From Anaerosalibacter bizertensis (GTDB lineage: Bacteria; Bacillota; Clostridia; Tissierellales; Sporanaerobacteraceae), in NCBI RefSeq assembly GCF_009696605.1, contig NZ_VULR01000001.1:186001-250000 (forward strand): 64,000 nt of DNA. The letters are read 5' to 3'. The notes beneath the pieces were generated by a model that made no database searches, had not been told where the DNA came from, and was given only the letters and a program-made list of their open reading frames with translations. This document shows positions 27,382 through 28,745 of the stretch, one piece after another. Within the stretch, counting starts at the first letter, position 1, and every line of letters begins with the position of its first letter. A program made the translations under genes and the position numbers.

Positions 27382-28566
27382 CTATTTTTCTACTGTCAAA
27401 AAACTCTCTGAAAAAACTCTTATTCCTATAGCTCCTAAAGGAGCTGTTATTAAAATAGATAGTACCGCTACTGCTAAAATCACATCTCCAGATGCTACAC
27501 CTAAAGATAAAGGGACTCCTCCTATAGCAGCTTGAACAGTTGCCTTAGGTATATAGGATATTATACAAAACAGTCTTTCCTTCCAATTTAAATCAATTCC
27601 TAGAAGAGATATTATGACTCCAATACTTCTTCCTATAAGACCAATTAGTATAAGAATAATACCTTTTATTCCAGAATCAAGTGCAACTGAAATATTAACT
27701 TGTGCGCCAACTAAAACAAAAAGAAATACTTGTGCAAAAACCCATATTTTATCAAACTTTATAGCTAATCTCTTACCTACCTCAGGTCTTTTTTCTAATA
27801 TAATAAAACCTATTGTCATGACTCCTAATAGGGAAGCTATTGAAATTTTACTTTTCAATAAATTTTCTAATTCAGTAAATAAAATTGAAAAACCAAGTAT
27901 TAATAAAACCTTTTTAGTATCACGTATATGATATTTATTGAAAATATTTAATAACATATAACCAATAATTATACCACCTACAATACCTAATAATATAGAT
28001 ATTGGAATTCCTAATAATTGAATACCAATATTTATATTATTACCATTATATAGACCTAAAAAAGCACTAAATATAGTAATAGCAAAAACATCGTCAATAG
28101 AAGCTCCAGCCATTATCAATGTTGGAATACCTTTATCCGTGCCTATCTTATTCTTATTTAAATCCAGCATTGAAGGAACTACAACAGCAGGAGAAACTGC
28201 CGCAAGAACAAATCCTAATATTCCACCTTCTATAAAAGAAAAATCAAAAATTTTTATTGAGGCAAAAGCAATAAAAAATCCTTCTATTACTCCTGGTATA
28301 AAACTCATTTTTATAGCTGAAGTTCCAACTTTCTTTAAATCATTTTTATTAATTCCAAACCCTGCCCTTAATAAAATAATAATCAAAGCAATTTTTCTTA
28401 AATCTGATGATATATTAATCATTTCAGGTCTAATCCAATTAAGACCATAAGGCCCTATTATTATACCTAAAATTAACATTCCTAATAAACCTGGCATTCT
28501 CATATTTTCAAAAAATCTATTTGCTGGCAACCCTAATAATAATATAATTGCTAAGCTTTTAGCCAT
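27382..28566 (-). CDS. Cation/proton antiporter (CPA family) under fluoride riboswitch
   Basis: A 394-residue membrane protein with about twelve helices, of the monovalent cation:proton antiporter superfamily. The transport-site acidic pair is in AGASIDDVFAI, the unwound region in AAVSPAVVVP. GGGAGTGG before the ATG at 28566 sets the start; 13 further codons are open upstream. A fluoride riboswitch ends 38 bases upstream, so expression should rise with fluoride. Antiporters are among the gene families known behind these riboswitches. Whether it moves Na+, K+ or fluoride-linked ions is unknown. Confidence 0.85.
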   Translation of the reverse strand: MAKSLAIILLLGLPANRFFENMRMPGLLGMLILGIIIGPYGLNWIRPEMINISSDLRKIALIIILLRAGFGINKNDLKKVGTSAIKMSFIPGVIEGFFIAFASIKIFDFSFIEGGILGFVLAAVSPAVVVPSMLDLNKNKIGTDKGIPTLIMAGASIDDVFAITIFSAFLGLYNGNNINIGIQLLGIPISILLGIVGGIIIGYMLLNIFNKYHIRDTKKVLLILGFSILFTELENLLKSKISIASLLGVMTIGFIILEKRPEVGKRLAIKFDKIWVFAQVFLFVLVGAQVNISVALDSGIKGIILILIGLIGRSIGVIISLLGIDLNWKERLFCIISYIPKATVQAAIGGVPLSLGVASGDVILAVAVLSILITAPLGAIGIRVFSESFLTVEK

Positions 28567-28603
28567 AAAACCACTCCCTAATATAATTAATTTTTTACAA
28601 AAC

Positions 28604-28682
28604 AAAAACTCCTATAGATAATAAATATTACCCATAGGAGTCATTAGCATTACGCAGTTATGGTGAACTCCATCACCTTTAA
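28604..28682 (-). promoter_or_regulatory. Fluoride riboswitch (crcB motif) with terminator
   Basis: Read on the minus strand: GGTGATGGAGTTCACC, ATAACTGC, a short loop, then GCTAATGACTCC. This matches the crcB-motif consensus (GGNGAUGG, UUCNCC, GC, GCUNAUGAC). Overlapping it, ACTCCTATRG pairs with CTATAGGAGT and is followed by TTTTTGTTTT, an intrinsic terminator. The ACTCC segment belongs to both structures, so fluoride binding should prevent termination and turn on the antiporter gene. Confidence 0.85.
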
Positions 28683-28745
28683 TATTAAATTATATACTAA
28701 TATTAATTTATCATTATTCTTCATGAAAATCAAATAACTATATAT

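Follow-up and report, generated by a model that had tools for sequence, protein, structure and literature searches.

A fluoride riboswitch upstream of an animal-NHA-like CPA2 antiporter in Anaerosalibacter bizertensis, and the possible role of this Fluc-avoiding subfamily in fluoride defence

The window analysed here, a stretch of 64,000 nucleotides of Anaerosalibacter bizertensis (contig NZ_VULR01000001.1, positions 186,001 to 250,000), carries on its minus strand a group of arsenic-type genes followed by a fluoride riboswitch and by a gene for a cation/proton antiporter, designated P0001. The elements of the locus are the following:

30395-28746, minus strand: genes for an ArsR repressor, an ArsP_1 permease and an ArsE-like thioredoxin, directly upstream of the riboswitch
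28689..28694, minus strand: possible -10 box TATAAT, read from the sequence, just upstream of the aptamer
28686-28628, minus strand: fluoride riboswitch aptamer RF01734 (cmscan 55.6 bits, gathering score 34, E = 1e-12, model positions 1-64 of 64, full length)
28599..28642, minus strand: intrinsic terminator overlapping the 3' strand of the aptamer (stem 28642-28607, then a T tract; terminator scan and fold)
28571..28579, minus strand: Shine-Dalgarno sequence AGGGAGTGG, read from the sequence, preceding the ATG at 28566
28566-27382, minus strand: P0001, a putatively riboswitch-controlled NHA-type CPA2 antiporter of 394 aa (PF00999, phmmer, AlphaFold2/Foldseek)

The original prediction had read the crcB-motif consensus on the minus strand and proposed a covariance search as a check. 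This search returned a full-length RF01734 match at 28686-28628, well over threshold (55.6 vs 34 bits), which was the sole Rfam match over threshold in the whole 64-kb window and the only copy of this riboswitch in the genome; the span given earlier, 28604-28682, corresponds to the aptamer minus its four 5' bases, plus the terminator. In the predicted fold of the leader (28690-28585) a 16-pair hairpin, GACTCCTATGGGTAATATTTATTATCTATAGGAGTT, is followed by TTTGTTTTG, with a dG of -29.4 kcal/mol and a z of -4.6 with respect to shuffled sequence, none of the shuffles being equally good. The terminator scan and the fold prediction gave the same stem, 28642-28607, in agreement with the overlapping terminator described before. 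Its 5' arm is the conserved 3' strand of the aptamer (GACUCCUAU; ACUCCU) and, since both structures need the same bases, aptamer and terminator are mutually exclusive. Such competition is the standard ON design of the crcB-motif class (PMC2864571), which the window RNA resembles in sequence, length and overlapping terminator, with no notable difference. By its architecture the element can thus be classed as an ON switch, and its response to fluoride would be that of the family. In the absence of fluoride the nascent leader would form the 28642-28607 terminator and transcription would end before the gene, while with fluoride (as the Mg-fluoride complex) the aptamer pseudoknot would be held, leaving the 3' strand ACUCCU unavailable to the terminator, and the gene would be made. 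A promoter might be located at the TATAAT at 28694-28689; no good -35 box was found for it and the promoter scan does not list the site. The terminator scan found no terminator between the ars genes and the aptamer, so that read-through into the leader is possible.

The three upstream genes constitute a putative metal(loid) operon; the best NCBIfam matches of the ArsP_1 permease were SaoE and SO_0444 Cu/Zn efflux, both under cut-off. This operon had been put forward as a meaningful neighbour of the antiporter, and it does end just upstream of the riboswitch (28746), but no homologue of the three genes was found in the 3-kb flanks of the antiporter locus of the nearest relative (L153, antiporter 96% identical), and ars-like genes are near only a few other antiporter loci, in a scattered way. 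For these reasons the neighbourhood was considered incidental and the link to an arsenic operon was rejected. The YkuD gene downstream of the antiporter is conserved in L153.

The start codon of P0001 lies 41 nt beyond the terminator stem, with AGGGAG 7 nt upstream of the ATG at 28566, and this start, with a good ribosome-binding site, is common to most of its homologues; the ORF with a TTG start (28605) begins at the terminator, and this start is unlikely. As had been anticipated, the product is a protein of cation/proton-antiporter type, and neither CrcB nor CLC-F: its single Pfam domain is Na_H_Exchanger (PF00999, 152.6 bits), while the NCBIfam K+/H+ antiporter equivalogs and the CPA2 subfamily model gave matches only far under their cut-offs. 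Among proteins of solved structure, human NHA2/SLC9B2 is the closest to P0001 (phmmer E 9.9e-42), and it was also the top PDB match in Foldseek (TM-score 0.82) of an AlphaFold2 model with a mean pLDDT of 87.8. Residues E95, D158, D159, R313 and K341 of P0001 align with NHA2 E215, D278, D279, R432 and K460; E95, D158, R313 and K341 are kept in 144/144 homologues, and D159 in 142/144, with D159N in the other two. Following the criteria used in CPA phylogeny (DD motif, arginine at position 8 and glutamate on TM3; PMC6181914), P0001 is, on sequence grounds, a member of the animal-NHA-like clade of CPA2, which refines the antiporter family named in the original prediction. The NHA2 and animal-NHA-like members tested carry out electroneutral Na+ or Li+/H+ exchange (PMC8850199, PMC6181914), and P0001 may do the same, its cation site being as such an exchanger requires. 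For Drosophila Nha1, a member of the clade, transport of H+ together with Cl- has been proposed (PMC9174904), which could be regarded by analogy as a single, indirect precedent for halide transport in the clade.

With respect to NHA2, P0001 has the same fold and ion-site residues, but it is without the N-terminal extension and is predicted to be under fluoride control. In addition, NHA2 W457 is replaced by Y338 in the P0001 family (98%), where W275 and G81 are invariant and G38, P39 and P188 near-invariant. In total, 18 family columns differ from NHA2 among the 144 sequences, none of them tied to fluoride, and no fluoride-binding site was recognised in this set.

The genome, 98% complete, gave no match to PF02537 (Fluc/CrcB) or to PF00654 (any CLC, including CLC-F with its GNNLI/GMxLI and GREGT/V motifs), and according to these searches it is without a recognised fluoride exporter. 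It encodes two PF00999 proteins, P0001 and a distant paralogue without riboswitch and, there being one riboswitch in the genome, P0001 would therefore be the one gene regulated by fluoride. Fluc/CrcB and CLC-F belong to families unrelated to P0001, but they share with it the same riboswitch control, and each of them is mostly the sole such transporter of its genome.

The distribution of this arrangement was surveyed in 249 genomes of the order, with riboswitches called by the RF01734 covariance model. A P0001 homologue was present downstream and on the same strand in 113 of the 131 matches, at distances of 38-735 nt (median 53 nt). The remaining ones were inspected one by one: four precede CLC-F genes (GNNLI or GMSLI with GREGT/V), two precede Fluc, that of G111 precedes a GGGtGRT-USP operon, and others are at contig ends or before gene remnants (G210, G104, G088, G050), seven of the remaining matches being under the gathering score. 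The antiporter was found in 127 genomes and Fluc, over cut-off, in 36, with only one genome having both (Fisher p 1.9e-11, genomes taken as independent), and this sole shared genome, G172, owes its place to a fragment at a contig end. Some loci of the order deserve separate mention. In G210 an intact fluoride riboswitch (L074, G210:C1:70632-70690, 54 bits) has only a 31-codon antiporter remnant downstream; sister genomes retain the antiporter gene and G191 has a 66-codon remnant. A degenerate aptamer (L094:434-487; 19.2 bits, under threshold) lies before an otherwise seemingly unlinked antiporter gene in G113, and a fused antiporter of 862 aa in G058 was discarded as artefactual, having been created by a stretch of N.

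The same picture was obtained from 303 genomes sampled across the class, mostly more than 90% complete, where the antiporter was present in 52, Fluc in 64 and both in none, with 11 expected (one-sided p 1.1e-6, genomes taken as independent). Outside the order of A. bizertensis these numbers were 45 and 61 (p about 4e-6), and 39/74 riboswitches lead to the antiporter and 12/74 to Fluc. A cross-phylum set was formed with 50 further genomes chosen for carrying the antiporter, covering Bacillota, Thermodesulfobacteriota, Nitrospirota, Fusobacteriota, Elusimicrobiota and others; Fluc was present in 2 of the 50. Across phyla, RF01734 was located upstream of the antiporter in 54/79 named loci, mostly within 300 nt, and tblastn searches of the flanks of the 79 loci for Fluc, CLC-F and USP found none. 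In a tree of 144 sequences, riboswitch-linked members appear in every main branch of the subfamily, which indicates that the link between riboswitch and antiporter is old. A duplication was seen at L190:2297-4797, with tandem antiporter copies and the second copy's own fluoride riboswitch between the genes.

These results bear on whether the avoidance of Fluc reflects function or only shared ancestry or ecology, in which case lineages that lost Fluc would by coincidence have retained the antiporter, the one not replacing the other in function, and export would be carried out by an unrecognised exporter elsewhere. The Fisher tests treat genomes as independent, which leaves room for such an explanation, and the support within genera is modest: in the four order genera with known sampled size, there was 1 shared genome vs 4.3 expected (P 0.01). 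However, in each of ten genera (g19, g20, g52 and g61 in the order; g97, g136, g142, g146, g167 and g205 in the class) some genomes carry the antiporter and others carry Fluc, so that swaps would have taken place repeatedly, the same avoidance is seen in the class-wide sample and the cross-phylum set, and the one riboswitch of the A. bizertensis genome would control P0001; we consider this explanation improbable. In g61 and g142, Fluc, CLC-F and the antiporter are all present, in different genomes and nearly all behind a riboswitch. The possibility that a co-occurring CLC acts as a hidden exporter was discarded upon reading about 49 CLC proteins: CLC-F motifs were present only in the riboswitch-linked ones (G018, G170, G180 and G186 in the order; G356, G421, G498 and G502 in the class) and in no antiporter genome, most other CLC proteins having GSGIP/GREGP and a few (g61, G091) having GREGA, which were left unclassed. 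Many surveyed genomes had neither antiporter nor Fluc, and therefore fluoride export is not always needed, a point against P0001 as the main fluoride-defence transporter.

Other genes behind fluoride riboswitches offer a comparison, made as a list of cases with no matched statistic. Helper genes without a role in export would be expected to coexist with Fluc, and this is what was observed for the extra riboswitches of Fluc genomes, which precede GGGtGRT (G495), MutS-like (G412) and dynamin-family GTPase genes (G375, G541) and, in G559, a damaged KefB-like CPA2 gene with USP; the antiporter is in this respect unlike an accessory gene. Divergent fluoride riboswitches are found at G541:C57:47563-47834, with a dynamin-family GTPase on one arm and a Fluc pair on the other, and at L184:2454-2786, with a dynamin-family GTPase on one arm and an NHA antiporter on the other. 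The two GTPases are 26% identical across their whole length, and the exchange of arms indicates that the antiporter occupies the position that Fluc has elsewhere. At L186 and L209 a GTPase gene lies between the riboswitch and the antiporter.

To our knowledge, bacteria have two recognised families of fluoride exporters, and the antiporters linked to the riboswitch have been dismissed as aids to pH control. The data presented here lead us to consider, with evenly balanced confidence, that the cell's main fluoride-defence transporter is P0001, an animal-NHA-like CPA2 protein placed under a fluoride ON-riboswitch acting on transcription, and that it fills the role that Fluc or CLC-F has in other bacteria, as suggested by the distribution pattern. 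That the antiporter avoids Fluc points to redundancy and hence to the same task, and in its distribution the subfamily behaves as an alternative fluoride exporter would, and not as an accessory. The original prediction contemplated an ionic response to fluoride, either through pH or Na+ balance or through direct handling; the former stays as one possibility and is the published view, while the near-absence of co-occurrence with Fluc points to the latter. In its direct form, P0001 would most likely export fluoride itself, proton-coupled as in CLC-F, on a modified NHA scaffold. It is conceivable, if somewhat short of probable, that riboswitch-controlled NHA-type CPA2 proteins constitute a third, so far unrecognised, family of microbial fluoride exporters that exists beside Fluc/FEX and CLC-F and takes their place across much of the Clostridia as well as in other anaerobes; a cation/proton-antiporter scaffold would in that case have given rise to an anion exporter.

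Direct export has to be weighed against a fluoride-induced cation/proton antiporter devoted to pH and Na+ homeostasis, which we regard as a rather doubtful but substantial alternative. HF entry would acidify the cytoplasm, and the accumulation of fluoride would scale with the pH gradient; a Na+/H+ exchanger could then restore pH or, working as Na+ out / H+ in, could shrink the gradient, with less fluoride trapped. The conservation of all the NHA2 ion-site residues on an NHA2 fold favours this indirect form and counts against direct fluoride export, and it agrees with the electroneutral Na+/H+ exchange of NHA2 and the animal-NHA-like clade (PMC8850199, PMC6181914) and with the explanation of riboswitch-linked antiporters by pH homeostasis in PMC11139923. 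Nevertheless, a gene with an accessory role would be expected alongside Fluc, as is the case for the other riboswitch genes, and the antiporter is found with it in 0/52 and 1/127 genomes; besides, genomes such as this one would be left without a recognised exporter. We give direct export a narrow lead, at roughly even odds, since there is no reason for a gene with an accessory role to be missing from Fluc genomes, and since this genome and similar ones would otherwise be without exporter. That the riboswitch is there by chance or is decayed, and regulates nothing, is very hard to reconcile with a full-length match far over threshold, an intact competing terminator, an intact gene with its ribosome-binding site and the recurrence of the arrangement in more than 100 relatives; nothing was found in its favour, though G210 shows that orphan copies occur. 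Were the subfamily to perform the task of an exporter, fluoride export would be present in many anaerobes that seemingly lack it (Clostridia, Peptoniphilaceae, Desulfobacterota and others) and, if the subfamily exports fluoride itself, the CPA fold would be capable of handling a halide. Should it consist of true Na+/H+ exchangers, pH control alone could replace fluoride export, which would be likewise surprising.

The pairing itself is ordinary and already published, as the original prediction had pointed out; the riboswitch and gene of the window are confirmed as such a pair, to which the survey adds the distribution pattern. In the passage of PMC11139923 that cites Baker et al. (2012), Na+/H+ antiporters are ranked second to exporters among the genes behind fluoride riboswitches, and their presence there is explained by pH homeostasis. 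As described in that passage, the category has the same pairing as the window, but it lumps unlike proteins, whereas P0001 belongs to the animal-NHA-like, Fluc-avoiding subfamily. Within the open-access literature, a scope outside which Baker et al. (2012) falls, no paper was found separating the NHA-like subfamily or reporting its avoidance of Fluc, nor was any found in that literature treating NHA-type antiporters as fluoride exporters. In C. difficile, an NhaP-type antiporter gene is located behind a CLC gene in one operon (PMC11477304). The KefB-like type differs from the Fluc-avoiding NHA-like subfamily, the damaged copy of G559 being in a Fluc genome. Genes of this type lie behind tandem fluoride aptamers at G470:C11:68817-68968 (L304) and G559:C42:372-540 (L297), with the aptamers 28 and 44 nt apart, respectively; the KefB-like gene is intact in G470 and internally damaged in G559, where it is followed by USP.
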